This document shows positions 36,003 through 52,885 of a stretch of DNA of 64,000 bases, piece after piece. Positions within the stretch are counted from its first letter, which is position 1; each line of letters opens with the position of its first letter. Under the pieces are notes generated by a model. It was not told the origin of the DNA. It ran no database searches and saw nothing but the letters and a program-made list of their open reading frames with translations. The position numbers and the translations under genes are program-made. Source of the stretch: Polynucleobacter sp. AP-Jannik-300A-C4 (lineage in GTDB: Bacteria > Pseudomonadota > Gammaproteobacteria > Burkholderiales > Burkholderiaceae); assembly GCF_018688335.1 (NCBI RefSeq), contig NZ_CP061316.1, positions 496,001 to 560,000 on the forward strand. The letters are read 5' to 3'.

Positions 36003-36036
36003 TTGAGTATTTAATGCATTGGTATTTGAGGCTCGA

Positions 36037-37560
36037 ATGAATTTATATTCCTTATTGGAAAAGGGTTTTCCAAAAGATAAGCAAGCATGTGCACTTGAAA
36101 CGCATGATGGACTTTATTACTCCTGGAGTGATCTAGAGCGTGCAACTGCCAAGATGGCAAATTTGCTTAAGAGTCTCAAATTACCTGCTGGATCAAGGGT
36201 TGCAGTACAGGTTGAAAAATCTCCTGAGGCCCTTTTTCTTTACCTTGCCACTATCAAGGCAGGCTACGTTTACCTACCTCTGAACACAGCCTATCAAGCG
36301 GCGGAAATTCAGTACTTTCTCGAGAATGCCGAGCCTGCAGTAGTAGTTTGCAGTTGCAAGAATTTCTCTTGGGTATCGAAGGTTGCTTTTAAGGCGGGCA
36401 CTAAACACGTGTTTACTTTGGATGAAGATCGCAAAGGCACTTTGCTTGAGCGTGCAGCTGACCAAAGTGATAAGTTCAAGACTGTTGCGGTAAAAGATGA
36501 TGATTTGGCTGCTATCTTGTATACCTCCGGTACAACCGGACGTAGCAAAGGCGCGATGCTGACTCACAAGAACTTGGGTAGTAATGCACAAGTGCTACAA
36601 AAGTTTTGGGGTTGGAAAAAAGGTGATGTCCTATTACATGCATTGCCAATCTTTCATGTCCACGGTCTATTTGTAGCTGCTCATGGTGCATTAATTAACG
36701 GTAGCAAAATGATTTGGTTGCCGCGTTTAGATACTGCGCAACTAATTCATCACATGCCCAATTCCACTGTAATGATGGGTGTTCCAACGTTCTATGTACG
36801 CTTGCTTGCAGATAAAAACTTTAATAAGAGCGTCACGCGCAATATGCGCTTATTTGTTTCTGGTTCAGCTCCTTTGCTCACGGAAACGTTTAATACTTTT
36901 AAAGAGGTGATTGGTCAACCGATTCTTGAGCGCTATGGCATGAGCGAGACCGTGATGTTGGTCTCCAACCCATACAAAGGAAATCGTGTAGGCGGATCAG
37001 TCGGTTTACCTTTGCCAGGTGTGAAGGTGCGCGTGGTTAATGAAAACAATAAACCTTGTGGTGTTGATGAAATCGGTAGTATCCAAGTTAAAGGCCCAAA
37101 TATATTCAAGGGCTACTGGCGCATGCCAGAGAAAACTGCAGAAGAATTTACCAAAGACGGCTGGTTTAAAACTGGTGACGTTGGTCGTTGGGGTGGCGAT
37201 GCCAATGGTGGTAAAGCACCCAAGGACTACCTTTGTATTGTTGGACGCAGCAAGGACTTAATTATTTCTGGCGGCTATAACGTTTATCCAAAAGAAATCG
37301 AAAGCTTTATCGATGACATGGATGGCGTAGATGAGAGTGCTGTGATTGGTATTCCGCATCCAGATTTTGGTGAAGCGGTAATGGCAGTGGTCGTACCCAA
37401 AGCAGGTGCCAAGCTAGATTCACAAGCTATGATTGCTACACTCAAAACGCAGATTGCAAATTTCAAGATTCCAAAGCGTTTAGAGATTGTTTCAGACTTG
37501 CCTCGCAATGCAATGGGCAAAGTCCAGAAGAATATTCTGCGTCAGCAATACACCAGCTAA
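36037..37560 (+). CDS. matB: Malonyl-CoA synthetase
   Basis: A 507-residue acyl-CoA synthetase of the ANL superfamily, making malonyl-CoA from malonate, ATP and CoA. AILYTSGTTGRSKGAML is the phosphate loop, ERYGMSET the adenine-binding block, GRSKDLIISGGYNVYPKEIE the hinge, and GKVQKNILRQQY holds the C-terminal catalytic lysine. I choose ATG 36037 over the upstream TTG because GAGG (36028-36031) is spaced 5 nt from it. Specificity for malonate is supported by the linked malonyl-CoA decarboxylase; methylmalonate is a possible secondary substrate. Confidence 0.9.
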   Translation: MNLYSLLEKGFPKDKQACALETHDGLYYSWSDLERATAKMANLLKSLKLPAGSRVAVQVEKSPEALFLYLATIKAGYVYLPLNTAYQAAEIQYFLENAEPAVVVCSCKNFSWVSKVAFKAGTKHVFTLDEDRKGTLLERAADQSDKFKTVAVKDDDLAAILYTSGTTGRSKGAMLTHKNLGSNAQVLQKFWGWKKGDVLLHALPIFHVHGLFVAAHGALINGSKMIWLPRLDTAQLIHHMPNSTVMMGVPTFYVRLLADKNFNKSVTRNMRLFVSGSAPLLTETFNTFKEVIGQPILERYGMSETVMLVSNPYKGNRVGGSVGLPLPGVKVRVVNENNKPCGVDEIGSIQVKGPNIFKGYWRMPEKTAEEFTKDGWFKTGDVGRWGGDANGGKAPKDYLCIVGRSKDLIISGGYNVYPKEIESFIDDMDGVDESAVIGIPHPDFGEAVMAVVVPKAGAKLDSQAMIATLKTQIANFKIPKRLEIVSDLPRNAMGKVQKNILRQQYTS

Positions 37561-44448: not shown

Positions 44449-45066
44449 ATGACAGCATTAGACAAGCACCCCGAAAAAAATCTGATTCGATTGCAGCTGA
44501 GTCAAAACTCAGTCTTAAAAAGCTTGGATCCTGCAGCAATGGCCGATTTAGAGCGCCATTTAGTGATTTCAGACCTCAAAAAATCAGAAATCTTGCTTCA
44601 TCAAGGTGATCACCAGATGGAGCAGTACTTCGTTCTGGATGGAATCTTGAAGCGCATTGTTTCTAGTGCGGACGCAAAAGAAATGATTCTGCGTTTTGCC
44701 ATTGAAAAAGATATTGAGACTAGCTATGCGGCTTGGCGCCTCAAAACGGCAGCCCCTTACAGCATTGCTTCAGTTACGAAAGCACGCGTAGCCCGTATGC
44801 CTCTGAAGAAATGGGCTGAATTTTTGGATGCACACAAGCCTCTGAAGGAGAGCTTTGAGTTCGAAGTCATGCGCCTGATGAGTGAGATCATGGCCCATAC
44901 GATTACCCTCCATATGCTCGATGCCCCGGGCCGTGTAGAGCGGTTTTTACGTAAATACGAAGACCTATTTGAGCTTCTCCCTAAAAAAGAGCTGGCTGCT
45001 TACCTTAACCTCTCTCCAGAGACTTTAAGTCGCCTCAAAACAAAGCATAAAGAGCTCTTTGTTTAG
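44449..45066 (+). CDS. Crp/Fnr-family transcriptional regulator, cysteine-free
   Basis: A 205-residue protein. The N-terminal cyclic-nucleotide-binding-type barrel (residues 25-120) includes SEILLHQGDHQMEQYFVLDG. A dimerisation helix follows (about 130-160). The C-terminal helix-turn-helix is ELAAYLNLSPETLSRL, whose E191-T-L-S194-R195 matches the ExxSR recognition residues of FNR, which read TTGA half-sites. There is no cysteine at all, so no FNR-type iron-sulfur cluster. The typical cAMP-binding RxS block is not evident either. It is divergent from the btu operon and 211 bp upstream of oxc. An FNR-type palindrome follows 36 bp after its stop, making oxc a probable target. Confidence 0.85.
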   Translation: MTALDKHPEKNLIRLQLSQNSVLKSLDPAAMADLERHLVISDLKKSEILLHQGDHQMEQYFVLDGILKRIVSSADAKEMILRFAIEKDIETSYAAWRLKTAAPYSIASVTKARVARMPLKKWAEFLDAHKPLKESFEFEVMRLMSEIMAHTITLHMLDAPGRVERFLRKYEDLFELLPKKELAAYLNLSPETLSRLKTKHKELFV

Positions 45067-45277: not shown

Positions 45278-46987
45278 ATGACAACAGATAATCAAAATAC
45301 CCAAGTCACTGATGGCTTTCATCTCGTCATTGATGCTTTAAAAGCAAATGACTTAGATACTATTTTTGGTCTCGTTGGTATTCCGATTACCGACTTGTGC
45401 CGTTTAGCTCAAGCTGAAGGAATGCGTTTCATCGGCTTCCGTCACGAGCAGCATGCCGGTAATGCTGCAGCGATTGCAGGTTACATGACTCAAAAGCCTG
45501 GCATCTGTATGACTGTGTCAGCACCAGGTTTCTTGAACGGTTTAACAGCCTTGGCTAACGCCACTGTGAACTGTTTCCCAATGATTTTGATTTCTGGTTC
45601 AAGTGAGCGTGAAATCGTTGACTTGCAGCAGGGTGATTACGAAGAGATGGATCAGCTCAATGCTGCTAAGCCATACTGTAAAGCTGCATATCGTATTAAC
45701 CACATCGAAGATATCGGCATTGGTTTTGCTCGTGCAATTCGTGCAGCTGTATCTGGTCGTCCAGGCGGTGTTTATTTGGACTTGCCCGCACAACTATTGG
45801 CTCAAACAATGCCAGTGGAAGAGGCTAAGAAATCGATCTTCAAAGTAATCGATCCAATTCCACGTCAAATCCCTGCAGCTGATGCTGTTGAGCGCGCATT
45901 GAATGTATTGAAAGGCGCTAAGCGTCCATTGATTCTCTTGGGTAAAGGTGCTGCTTATGCTCAAGCTGATGCTGATATTCGTGCATTGATTGAGAAGTCT
46001 GGTATCCCTTACTTGCCAATGTCGATGGCTAAAGGCTTGTTGCCAGACAATCACCCACAATCTGCTTCTGCAGCACGTTCATTTGTATTGGCTGAAGCTG
46101 ATGCAGTGATGTTGGTTGGTGCTCGTTTGAACTGGTTGCTTGCCCACGGTAAAGGCAAGACATGGGGCAAAGATCCTAAGAAATTTATCCAAATCGATAT
46201 TCAAGCAAATGAAGTGGATAGCAACGTACAAATTGATGCTCCTTTGATTGGTGACATTGGTTCTGTAGTTGGTGAGCTTCTCAAAGGAATTGCCTCGGTT
46301 CCAAAACCGCCTGCCGAGTGGATCAGCGCGATCAACGAGAAAAAAGATAAGAACATGGCGAAGATGGCTGAAACATTAGCCAAAGAAGCCTCGCCAATGA
46401 ACTTCCATGGTGCTTTGCGTGCCATCCGTGATGTGATCAAGCAAAACCCAGATGTGAACTTGGTAAACGAAGGTGCAAACACACTCGACTACTGTCGTGC
46501 GATTGTGGATATGTATAAACCACGGAAGCGCTTTGATTCTGGAACATGGGGAATCATGGGTATTGGTATGGGTTATGCCATCGGTGCTGCGGTAACAAGT
46601 GGTTTACCTACAGTTGCAGTTGAGGGTGATAGTGCATTTGGATTTAGTGGCATGGAATTAGAAACCATTTGCCGCTACAACCTTCCAATCACTACCGTGG
46701 TTTTCAACAACAATGGTGTTTACCGTGGTACTGACGTAAATCCAACTGGTGGCGCTGATGTTGCTCCAACAGTATTCGTGAAAGATGCGCGTTACGACAA
46801 GATGATTGAGGCATTTGGTGGTGTTGGTTATTACGTAACTACCCCTGCCGAATTAGAAGCGGCTTTGACTAAAGCGATTGCTGAACGTAAGCCAGCCTTA
46901 ATTAATGCAGTGATTGACGAGACAGCTGGTACAGAGAGTGGACGTTTAACAAACCTGAATCCATCAACAGCTGCTGGTAAGAAGTAA
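45278..46987 (+). CDS. oxc: Oxalyl-CoA decarboxylase
   Basis: A 569-residue thiamine diphosphate enzyme converting oxalyl-CoA to formyl-CoA and CO2. The N-terminal Pyr domain has [18 protein letters not shown] with E57, the glutamate that activates the cofactor. [22 protein letters not shown] is specific to the family. The C-terminal PP domain has the metal motif G450-D-S-A-F-G-F...NNNG. Length matches the Oxalobacter enzyme (568). It works with formyl-CoA transferase (72 bp downstream) in a cycle: formyl-CoA plus oxalate gives oxalyl-CoA plus formate. The upstream leader has an FNR-type box and a hairpin but no evident Shine-Dalgarno. Confidence 0.95.
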
Positions 46988-47059: not shown

Positions 47060-48310
47060 ATGACAAAACCATTAGACGGTATTCGTATTATTGACTTCAC
47101 ACACGTACAGGCAGGTCCTGCATGTACTCAGCTATTGGCTTGGTACGGTGCGGATGTGATCAAAGTAGAGCGCCCAGGTTCTGGTGACGTAACTCGTAGC
47201 CAGTTGCGTGATATCCCAGGTGCGGATGCCTTGTATTTCACGATGTTGAACGGCAATAAGCGTTCATTGACATTGGATACTAAGACACAAGAAGGTAAAG
47301 AAGTTTTAGAGAAGATGATTAAAACATCTGACGTGATGGTTGAGAACTTCGGTCCAGGCGCTTTGGATCGTATGGGTTTTAGCTGGGCACGTATTCAGGA
47401 ATTGAATCCAAAAATGATCATGGCTTCTGTTAAAGGCTTTAGCGATGGCCATTCATACGAAGACTTAAAGGTATATGAGAACGTTGCTCAGTGTGCTGGT
47501 GGTGCAGCATCGACAACTGGTTTCTGGGATGGTCCTCCAACTGTTTCTGCTGCTGCTTTGGGCGATAGCAACACTGGTATGCATTTGGCTATCGGTATCT
47601 TGACTGCATTGATGCAGCGTCAAAAAACTGGCAAAGGTCAAAAAGTATCTTGCTCAATGCAGGATGCGGTATTGAACTTGTGCCGTGTGAAGTTGCGCGA
47701 TCAACAACGTCTGGATAAAGTTGGCTATCTCGAAGAGTACCCACAGTATCCACACGGAACATTCTCCGACGTAGTTCCACGCGGCGGTAACGCTGGTGGT
47801 GGTGGTCAGCCAGGATGGGTATTGAAGTGTAAGGGCTGGGAAACAGATCCAAACGCCTACATCTATTTCACTATTCAAGGTCACGCTTGGGAGCCAATTA
47901 CTAAAGCTTTGGGCAAACCAGAGTGGGCAACTGATCCAGCGTACATGACTGCAGAAGCGCGTCAAGATAAGATTTTTGATATCTTCGCAACGATTGAAGA
48001 GTGGCTCAAGGACAAGACTAAGTACGAAGCTGTGGACATCCTCCGCAAGTTCGATATTCCTTGCGCACCAGTTCTCTCAATGAAAGAATTGGCTGCTTCA
48101 CCTGATTTGCGTAAGAGCGGCTCTATTGTTGAAGTTGACCACAAGGTTCGTGGTAAGTACTTAACAATCGGTAGCCCAATCAAGTTCTCTGATTTGAAGA
48201 TCGACGTTGGTCCATCACCAGTATTGGGTGAGCACACCGATGAAGTATTGAAAGATCTTGGCTATAACGCTGATGATATTGCTAAGTTGCATGCAGCTAA
48301 AGCGGTTTAA
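47060..48310 (+). CDS. frc: Formyl-CoA:oxalate CoA-transferase
   Basis: A 416-residue family III CoA-transferase. [28 protein letters not shown] is the conserved N-terminal region; D169 in LGDSNTGMH is the catalytic aspartate and has the same number as in the Oxalobacter enzyme. The glycine loop over the active site is present as GGGGQPGW. It has a strong AAGGAG Shine-Dalgarno. It is in the same orientation as oxc and is followed by a clear terminator, so oxc-frc forms one transcription unit. Confidence 0.95.
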
Positions 48311-48404: not shown

Positions 48405-48824
48405 ATGAAAACAAATGTAGATTTATCCCAATTGATCGACTGCATTGGCGATGCAGTGATTGTTGCTGATGCTCATGAAAAAATTGTTCTTTGGAACGCA
48501 GCTGCAAGCAGAATTTTTGGTTACTCAGAAGAAGAAGCGCTTGGAAACACTTTAGATTTGATTGTTCCTGAACGTCAGCGCCAGCGACACAACGAGGGCT
48601 ACAGCAAATCCATGGAGACAGGTACTACCCGTTATGGCACTTCATTGCTAAAGGTGCCGGCAAAGCACAAAGATGGCCATACTTTATCAATCGCTTTTAC
48701 CGTGGGCATGTTGTTTGATGCAAATAATCAAGCTTATGGCGTAGTCGCAGTGATTCGGGATGAGACCCAAGGTTTTGCAGAAGAAAGGGCACTAAAAAAG
48801 CGACTTTCGGATCTCGAAAGCTGA
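48405..48824 (+). CDS. Orphan PAS-domain protein
   Basis: A 139-residue protein that is almost entirely one PAS domain: LIDCIGDAVIVADAHEKIVLWNAAASRIFGYSEEEALG at the start, GVVAVIRDETQGFAEERALKK at the end. There is no kinase, cyclase, DNA-binding or membrane segment. H62 in ERQRQRHNEGYSKSMETG aligns with the haem-ligating histidine region of FixL and DosP PAS domains. Many non-haem PAS domains share that motif, so haem binding is only possible. The last 12 residues look like a short amphipathic helix. It sits between the two frc genes, between the oxc-frc terminator and the second frc promoter. A sensor or adaptor role is inference. Confidence 0.8.
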   Translation: MKTNVDLSQLIDCIGDAVIVADAHEKIVLWNAAASRIFGYSEEEALGNTLDLIVPERQRQRHNEGYSKSMETGTTRYGTSLLKVPAKHKDGHTLSIAFTVGMLFDANNQAYGVVAVIRDETQGFAEERALKKRLSDLES

Positions 48825-48963: not shown

Positions 48964-50211
48964 ATGGCAAAAGCATTAGAAGGGGTCAAAATTCTTGACT
49001 TCACACACGTTCAATCTGGCCCAACATGTACTCAGTTGCTTGCTTGGTTTGGTGCAGACGTAATCAAAGTAGAAAAATCAGGTGAAGGCGATGCCACTCG
49101 TGGTCAATTGCGCGATATCCCTGATGCAGATAGTTTGTATTTCACCATGTTGAACCACAACAAGCGTTCAATCACTGTCAATACGAAAACTCCAAAGGGT
49201 AAGGAAATTCTGGAGCGTTTGATTAAGGAGTGTGATGTTCTTGTTGAGAACTTCGCTCCTGGCGCACTAGACCGTATGGGTTTTTCTTGGGAGCGTATTC
49301 AAGAGCTCAATCCTATGATGATCATGGCTTCAGTAAAAGGCTTTGGCCCTGGTCCTTACGAGGATTGCAAAGTTTATGAAAACGTTGCTCAATGTGCTGG
49401 CGGTTCAGCGTCAACAACTGGTTTTGATGATGGCCCTCCTATGGTGACTGGTGCGCAGATTGGTGACAGTGGTACTGGCCTGCATTTAGCATTAGGAATT
49501 GTGACTGCACTGTATCAACGCACTCACTCTGGTCGTGGTCAAAAAGTATTGGCAGCAATGCAAGATGCGGTATTGAATTTGTGCCGCGTGAAGTTGCGCG
49601 ATCAACAGCGCTTAGAGCGCGTTGGTTTGATGCAAGAGTACCCGCAGTTCCCTAATGGAGAGTTCGGTGATTCAGTGCCTCGTGCAGGTAATGCTTCAGG
49701 CGGTGGTCAGCCTGGTTGGATTGTGAAATGCAAAGGCTGGGAAACAGATCCAAATTCCTACATGTATGTCATCGTACAAGCCCCTGTTTGGGAGGCGATT
49801 TGCAAGGTAATCGACCGAGAAGATTGGATTACGGATGTGCGATTTGCATCCCCAATGGCGCGCTTGCCACATTTGATGGAAATTTTCGGTGAAATCGAAA
49901 AATGGACAATGACAAAGACGAAGTTCGAAGTCATGGATATCTTGAACAAATACGATATTCCTTGTGGTCCAATTTTGTCGATGAAAGAGATCGCAGAAGA
50001 GCCGGCATTGCGCGCTACTGGAACTGTTGTTGAAGTGGATCACCCAATTCGCGGCAAATACCTCACTGTTGGTAACCCAATCAAGATGTCTGATAGCCCA
50101 ACGGATGTAACTCGTTCGCCGCTACTCGGTGAGCATACCGATGAGATCCTTCACGAACTCGGCTATTCAACGGATGAGTTGATTAGTCTTCGTCACGATA
50201 AGGTTATCTAA
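48964..50211 (+). CDS. Second formyl-CoA transferase-like family III CoA-transferase
   Basis: A 415-residue paralogue of the first frc product, strongly similar along its length ([50 protein letters not shown] shared almost exactly). The catalytic aspartate is D168 in IGDSGTGLH. The glycine loop reads ASGGGQPGW instead of AGGGGQPGW, and the region at 125-135 is one residue shorter. It has its own predicted promoter and is followed after 1 bp by the formyltransferase-like gene. It may be a second oxalate transferase, or use another CoA donor or acceptor (for example acetyl-CoA or succinyl-CoA with oxalate). Confidence 0.85.
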
Positions 50212-50212
50212 G

Positions 50213-51145
50213 ATGCGTGTTGCGCTGATTGGAAGTGCGGATTTTGGTAAGGCGGCATTAGAGGCTTTTTTGGATCGTGGTGACGAAGTCGTTGCCGTTT
50301 TTTGTCCGCCGGATAATCCAAAATCTAGCAAACCTGAGGCGCTGAAAGAGGCGGCTATTGCAAGAGGCTTAAGCCCCTTGCAATTTGCCTCTCTCAAGGG
50401 CCCTGAAGCAGCGCAAGCAATGATTGATAGCCAGGCGGATATCTGTGTGATGGCCTATGTGCTTCAGTTTGTGCCGCAAGAGCTTTGCAAAATTCCTAAG
50501 CATGGCACGATTCAATATCACCCTTCCTTATTGCCCAAGTACCGTGGTCCTAGTGCCATTAATTGGGCAATTGCATTAGGTGAAGAAAAAACAGGCCTGA
50601 CAATCTTCCGTCCATCTGATGGTTTGGATGAGGGTGAAATCATTTTGCAAAAAGAAGTTGCTATTGGACCTGACGATACATTGGGTAAAGTCTACTTTGA
50701 TCACTTATTTCCAGTTGGAGTGAAAGCACTTCTTGAGGCTGCTGATCTAGTGCTTGCAAATAAGCATCAAGAAGTTGTTCAAGATGAATCGCAGGCGAAT
50801 TACGAAGGCTGGTTTGATGCAAATGCTGCTCAAATCCACTGGGCCACTCACATTACTCAAATTTATAACTTAATACGTGCATGCAATCCTGCACCGGGTG
50901 CTTGGACTAAGTTTGGCGAGCAAAAAGTACAGATCTACGATTGCCACAAGCATGTAGCAGCTACCTTTGGATCCGTTAAAGGCAAGCCAGGTGAAATCAC
51001 TCAAATAAATTTGGATTCATTCTTTGTCGCCTGCCATGGTGGGCAGATCGAAGTCCTTAAGGCAAAAGGCGCTGCTGGAAAAGTAACGGGTGCTGAATTA
51101 GCTAAAGAGTTGAGTTTAGAGATCGGGCACTTCTTCGCACTATAA
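50213..51145 (+). CDS. Formyltransferase-fold protein like the 10-formyl-THF hydrolase domain
   Basis: A 310-residue protein with an N-terminal formyltransferase domain (1-200) and a C-terminal Fmt-like domain. HGTIQYHPSLLPKYRGPSAINW, then FRPSDGLDEGEIILQKEV and YFDHLFPVGVKAL, resemble the hydrolase domain of 10-formyl-THF dehydrogenase (ALDH1L) more than methionyl-tRNA formyltransferase. H103 and D139 fit the catalytic His/Asp. The position two before the histidine, Asn in Fmt, is Gln101. It begins 1 bp after the second frc gene, so it is co-transcribed with it. I infer it moves or hydrolyses formyl groups derived from formyl-CoA or 10-formyl-THF. The true fmt is expected elsewhere. Confidence 0.75.
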   Translation: MRVALIGSADFGKAALEAFLDRGDEVVAVFCPPDNPKSSKPEALKEAAIARGLSPLQFASLKGPEAAQAMIDSQADICVMAYVLQFVPQELCKIPKHGTIQYHPSLLPKYRGPSAINWAIALGEEKTGLTIFRPSDGLDEGEIILQKEVAIGPDDTLGKVYFDHLFPVGVKALLEAADLVLANKHQEVVQDESQANYEGWFDANAAQIHWATHITQIYNLIRACNPAPGAWTKFGEQKVQIYDCHKHVAATFGSVKGKPGEITQINLDSFFVACHGGQIEVLKAKGAAGKVTGAELAKELSLEIGHFFAL

Positions 51146-51153
51146 GCCACAAC

Positions 51154-52885
<1,732 letters not shown>

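Follow-up and report, generated by a model that had tools for sequence, protein, structure and literature searches.

A predicted formyl-CoA:tetrahydrofolate formyltransferase encoded beside oxalate catabolism genes in Polynucleobacter and other bacteria

The oxalate gene run and its closing gene

The window, which is the whole stretch of 64,000 nucleotides analysed here, comes from a Polynucleobacter genome consisting of a single 2.0-Mb contig and contains an operon-like run in which a Crp-like regulator, oxc, frc, a PAS-domain ORF, and a second frc are closed by a gene of the formyltransferase fold (Table 1). This last gene, referred to below as the FDH-like gene, begins 1 bp after the second frc (stop codon TAA up to 50211, ATG from 50213), as a preliminary description of the locus had stated, and is followed by a gene on the opposite strand. 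The profile scores of oxc and of both frc copies likewise bear out the oxalate/formyl-CoA neighbours named in that description, to which the PAS-domain ORF and the Crp-like regulator are additions. A relative of the Crp-like regulator (cluster c3) lies near oxc in 21 of 32 Burkholderiales loci, and the cluster of the PAS protein covers 43 of the 81 loci of one survey. The window operon has two frc paralogs, and two frc matches per genome were also found in all four of the other Polynucleobacter genomes searched; a malonyl-CoA synthase-like gene is located approximately 7 kb upstream of the Crp-like regulator.

Table 1. Features of the window and the loci with an alternative TPP enzyme
Feature	Position or loci	Strand	Basis
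Malonyl-CoA synthase-like gene	36019-37560		NF005702
Crp-like regulator, cNMP-binding fold	44449..45066	+	PF00027
oxc, oxalyl-CoA decarboxylase, formyl-CoA source	45278..46987	+	TIGR03254 989 bits, cut-off 739
First frc, formyl-CoA:oxalate CoA-transferase	47060..48310	+	TIGR03253 729 bits
139-aa protein with one PAS domain, flanked by the frc copies	48405..48824	+	TIGR00229, PF00989
Second frc, formyl-CoA:oxalate CoA-transferase	48964..50211	+	TIGR03253 734 bits, cut-off 504
FDH-like gene, predicted formyl-CoA:THF formyltransferase, stand-alone, FDH-hydrolase-like, 310 aa	50213..51145	+	ATG start, ORF translation
Gene after the FDH-like gene	51164-52015	-	
HACL-like loci, oxc replaced near frc and the FDH-like gene	L128-L133, L135-L137, L106, L169, L172, L175, L177, L183, L185		

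The FDH-like ORF is a real gene, its Pfam scores (Formyl_trans_N, PF00551, 104.7 bits; Formyl_trans_C, PF02911, 61.2 bits; only these two domains) and AlphaFold confidence (mean pLDDT 95.5) being well above chance. The translation contains both HPSLLPKYRGPSAINW and DGLDEGEIILQKE, blocks that had been compared with the hydrolase domain of ALDH1L-type 10-formyl-THF dehydrogenase (FDH) in preference to methionyl-tRNA formyltransferase (Fmt), and the comparison holds: the best PDB sequence matches are ALDH1L1/FDH hydrolase domains (E 5e-48 to 2e-43, 152-185 bits), with Fmt behind them (best E 8.5e-37, 100-130 bits). The replacement of the Fmt asparagine by Gln101, also pointed out earlier, extends through the family (the 41 aligned relatives of the gene), in which this alignment column holds Gln in 36 rows and Cys in five, as against Asn in 14/14 Fmt and 4/4 ArnA rows and Ile in 3/3 FDH rows. 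By mapping onto FDH, H103, S105, and D139 are the presumed catalytic residues, and F86, G137, L138, and Y197, whose equivalents line the folate site in FDH, are kept as well.

Housekeeping Fmt was considered as an identity for the FDH-like gene and rejected. The host genome has five Formyl_trans_N genes, which are read, from their own sequences and a PDB match for one, as purN, fmt, purU, an ArnA-N-like gene, and the FDH-like gene; the host fmt adjoins a gene read as def, so that another fmt, the lack of which the preliminary description would have counted against its reading, exists in this genome. The FDH-like protein misses the TIGR00460 (Fmt) cut-off of 201.5 bits, scoring 159 bits, and in all 12 carrier genomes tested the ortholog (133-182 bits) is additional to a separate Fmt above that cut-off. 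The catalytic Asn of Fmt, which precedes the histidine of HxSLLP by two positions, occurs in 0/41 family rows. The AGRG loop of Fmt, which has a role in tRNA binding, is found in 0/41 family rows as against 13/15 Fmt rows. The tree agrees with the expectation that the gene falls outside ordinary Fmt, since a 100/99 branch has Fmt and ArnA on one side and the FDH-like gene on the other; for the family itself as one side of a branch, apart from FDH, support is 75/22 when HypX and one long Fmt row are included and 51/12 with both left out. PurU fits no better, as TIGR00655 gives 20 bits (cut-off 286) and Pfam finds no match to an N-terminal ACT domain.

In each of two database searches, the 120 matches listed are called methionyl-tRNA formyltransferase wherever their name specifies a function, and in one search at least 4385 of 8000 candidates had E <= 1e-70. 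If the predicted activity is true, annotation as Fmt would be a large misannotation to correct, with thousands of proteins in need of renaming.

Co-occurrence with frc and the TPP-enzyme partners

Co-occurrence of the FDH-like gene with frc is near-obligate. Among 300 Burkholderiales genomes, in which orthologs were counted at >=309 bits (n=58; not counted were the next 12 matches, which score 140-157 bits and come from 10 additional genomes and two carriers), frc (TIGR03253) is present in 64, comprising all 58 carriers and six genomes with frc only; no carrier is without frc, and 236 genomes have neither. In a second class (that of genome G562; 289 genomes), there are 20 carriers and 23 genomes with frc, of which 17 have both, while three have only the FDH-like gene and six only frc. 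The frc linkage thus extends well beyond the strain in which it was first noted. Fisher p values for co-occurrence are 1e-55 (Burkholderiales) and 9e-20 (second class), both of which ignore kinship; because carriers share kinship, the survey counts are non-independent. In a genome-contig scan, all genus-naming records at >=85% identity to the FDH-like gene are Polynucleobacter.

Physical distances are mostly short. In 53 of the 58 Burkholderiales carriers the FDH-like gene lies within 253 bp of frc and in two within 3.3 kb; frc is more than 100 kb away in two and on another contig in one, and in these three carriers oxc is beside the FDH-like gene instead (approximately 100 bp in G042 and G087, approximately 260 bp in G230). 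Nine of the 20 second-class carriers have frc within 190 bp, in a tenth (G827) the neighbour is a partial frc where the contig ends, and seven have frc elsewhere. As a control, the real Fmt gene was located in the 12 carrier genomes tested, and there it shares no contig with frc or is separated from it by more than 800 kb. Unlinked copies have their own surroundings: in G638 (L142) the FDH-like gene follows accA, and its contig carries two frc genes at a distance of approximately 166 kb, and in G729 (L167) no neighbour matched the references. Downstream of the gene, several GC-rich Burkholderiales loci (L114:9297-15814 etc.) encode a CHASE2-Ser/Thr kinase, a PP2C phosphatase, an FHA protein, and a CHASE2-adenylate cyclase.

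It is highly improbable that the protein is an N-formyltransferase of another kind (a second Fmt, or an enzyme acting on a sugar or small amine) that lies beside frc by chance: its Fmt-type fold and domain content and the database name among the matches listed are in keeping with such an enzyme, but the loss of the catalytic Asn in 41/41 rows, the missing AGRG loop, the separate Fmt of the carriers tested, and the presence of frc in 58/58 carriers argue against it. A formyl-CoA hydrolase (a thioesterase on the formyltransferase fold) would suit a gene found nearly always in genomes that make formyl-CoA, and mostly beside the genes for doing so; nevertheless, such an enzyme would dissipate the thioester on which Frc depends for oxalate activation, and the residues that line the folate site in FDH are retained, making this option very unlikely. 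The preliminary description had offered either formyl-CoA hydrolysis or formyl exchange between CoA and THF. Exchange is much the better supported of these two predicted roles, because the nearest relatives are described as carrying out transfer of this kind, ALDH1L1 between 10-formyl-THF and a phosphopantetheine thiol and HypX between 10-formyl-THF and CoA.

The TPP enzymes of these neighbourhoods are of two kinds. In 121 loci (L006, L037-L116, L128-L147, and L167-L186, about half of them closely related and Polynucleobacter-type, with many contigs ending nearby), Oxc and Frc both lie within 500 bp in 57 and a HACL-like enzyme and Frc within 500 bp in 16; Frc is within 500 bp with no TPP enzyme matched in the DNA examined in 18, Oxc is present with Frc further off in 11 and without Frc in three, and neither was seen in 16. 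The HACL-like enzyme scores 448-518 bits against NF004516 (cut-off 587) and 321-378 against NF058623 (cut-off 600) in the 10 of its 16 loci that were scanned, and 216-244 bits against TIGR03254 (cut-off 739) in four; this HACL/PRK05858-like enzyme shares 26% identity with Oxc (two pairs compared) and lacks the YE motif of Oxc. Among solved structures, the copy in L129 comes closest to 2-hydroxyacyl-CoA lyases. The HACL-like enzyme may represent a second formyl-CoA-releasing pathway, with oxalyl-CoA or a 2-hydroxyacyl-CoA as possible substrate. Because the nearest TPP enzyme is HACL-like in 16/121 loci, the earlier label of an oxalate/formyl-CoA locus stands for its formyl-CoA part and is too narrow in its oxalate part. 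On the best tree of the FDH-like gene, the partner type changes at least five times over 27 labelled rows (mean of 7.8 with shuffled labels). The GGGQ motif of Frc is kept in both the Oxc and the HACL-like settings (it is not shown in three truncated copies), and formyl-CoA is therefore taken as the constant chemistry. A TctCBA-HACL-frc-FDH-like gene cluster in two AT-rich 1.4-Mb genomes (L183 and L185, locus GC of 34-35%) places formyl-CoA metabolism in streamlined genomes.

Predicted reaction and its physiological direction

The product of the FDH-like gene is predicted to be a reversible formyl-CoA:tetrahydrofolate formyltransferase, a proposal to which we assign a probability of roughly 0.72 and which rests on the gene, the operon, the co-occurrence with frc, the non-Fmt motifs, and the retention of FDH-type catalytic residues. 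In the proposed scheme, Frc would make oxalyl-CoA, formyl-CoA would be released by Oxc or the HACL-like TPP enzyme, and His103 and Asp139 would serve to exchange the formyl group between the thiol of CoA and the N10 position of THF. The net flux during oxalate turnover would be formyl-CoA + THF -> 10-formyl-THF + CoA, bringing oxalate carbon into the folate pool at no ATP cost; run backward, 10-formyl-THF + CoA would yield starter formyl-CoA for Frc. Sequence does not discriminate between these two directions in the cell.

Genomic context bears on both. Formate-THF ligase (Fhs) has no match in the host genome or in four other Polynucleobacter genomes, which fits the assimilation direction; the host genome does have a formate dehydrogenase alpha subunit above cut-off. 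Elsewhere, fhs directly adjoins the FDH-like gene in 7/20 second-class carriers, several operons end with fhs, and plasmid pLA6_002 has the order oxc-frc-FDH-like gene-fhs. Fhs is present in 50/58 Burkholderiales carriers (within 15 kb of the FDH-like gene in 25 of the 50) and in 2/6 frc-only Burkholderiales genomes. Locus L169 continues from the FDH-like gene with fhs, a NuoF-like subunit, and a 1063-aa ORF, the last two of which are read as a formate dehydrogenase module.

Exchange between formyl-CoA and 10-formyl-THF has its equilibrium on the 10-formyl-THF side. This, together with the missing Fhs match in Polynucleobacter, weighs against priming as the physiological role, in which 10-formyl-THF supplied by Fhs or derived from serine would formylate CoA and start Frc on the first oxalate. 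Priming is nevertheless a possibility that we hold tentatively, as one direction of the main proposal and compatible with it: it could explain the frequent fhs neighbours, it matches the folate-to-thiol direction in which both characterised relatives, FDH and HypX, are described as running, and a passage of PMC3720670 states that the Frc cycle needs priming. That the enzyme instead serves as a 10-formyl-THF hydrolase, releasing formate and THF and balancing the folate pool under a high formyl load, is unlikely. The nearest sequence is indeed the FDH "hydrolase" domain, and the FDH N-domain alone is described as hydrolysing 10-formyl-THF in vitro; however, the host already has a gene read as purU, an adjacent fhs would create a futile cycle, and the link to frc would be left unexplained. 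Moreover, passages of PMC8748788 state that the FDH domain requires non-physiological thiols for free hydrolysis, and the earlier name of a 10-formyl-THF hydrolase-like protein, although apt as to FDH-domain likeness, accordingly understates transfer.

Polynucleobacter species are described as not assimilating oxalate (PMC5018217; PMC3308952). Three of the species to which this description applies carry the FDH-like gene (P. yangtzensis MWH-JaK3, P. sinensis MWH-HuW1, and P. duraquae). A role for the predicted formyltransferase in providing an auxiliary source of energy and C1 units, or a detoxifying one, would fit these descriptions better than growth on oxalate alone.

On balance, we favour the broader view that a widespread class of formyl-CoA:THF formyltransferases joins the CoA-thioester and folate C1 pools in bacteria; together with Frc and Oxc or a HACL-like lyase, formyl-CoA would be a branch point at which oxalate, and perhaps another 2-hydroxy acid, feeds the folate pool or is primed by it, with no additional ATP spent. 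If true, such an enzyme would close a gap between oxalate catabolism (oxalyl-CoA, formyl-CoA) and the C1-folate pool. It would also explain either the use of oxalate-derived formyl groups without formate-THF ligase or the start of the Frc cycle. Formyl-CoA is an intermediate in synthetic C1 assimilation according to a passage of PMC11961710; a formyl-CoA:THF transferase found in nature would be a valuable component of such pathways.

Comparison with known systems

The role had previously been called undescribed, in agreement with the open-licence literature searched, where no stand-alone bacterial enzyme of this kind was found for oxalate/formyl-CoA metabolism. By sequence, the N-domain of ALDH1L1 (FDH) is the closest characterised relative, sharing HPSLLP, W118, F132, Y161, E198, and the H/S/D catalytic residues with the FDH-like protein. 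As described in passages of PMC8748788, ALDH1L1 transfers formyl from 10-formyl-THF to a 4'-phosphopantetheine thiol. The FDH-like protein, in contrast, is bacterial, stands alone at 310 aa without the 4'-PP carrier and ALDH domains of the whole enzyme, and is encoded beside frc/oxc, with CoA as the presumed partner; it also has Gln/Cys in place of Ile104, a residue whose change to Asn is stated in an excerpt of PMC4388273 to leave hydrolase activity below 10%.

HypX, which has the same fold and formylates CoA according to a passage of PMC12134894, is matched by the FDH-like protein in its N-domain fold at an identity of only approximately 20%. HypX, however, is fused to an enoyl-CoA-hydratase-like decarbonylase, makes CO, and belongs to a hydrogenase context, whereas Pfam finds no such hydratase-like domain in the FDH-like protein. 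The acetyl-CoA:oxalate CoA-transferase YfdE of E. coli, proposed as a primer of the formyl-CoA cycle (PMC3720670, in part), is likewise encoded by an accessory gene beside oxc/frc, but is a class III CoA-transferase unrelated in fold and chemistry. Precedents thus exist for the fold and chemistry, and the predicted stand-alone bacterial role in oxalate/formyl-CoA metabolism would be the new part.
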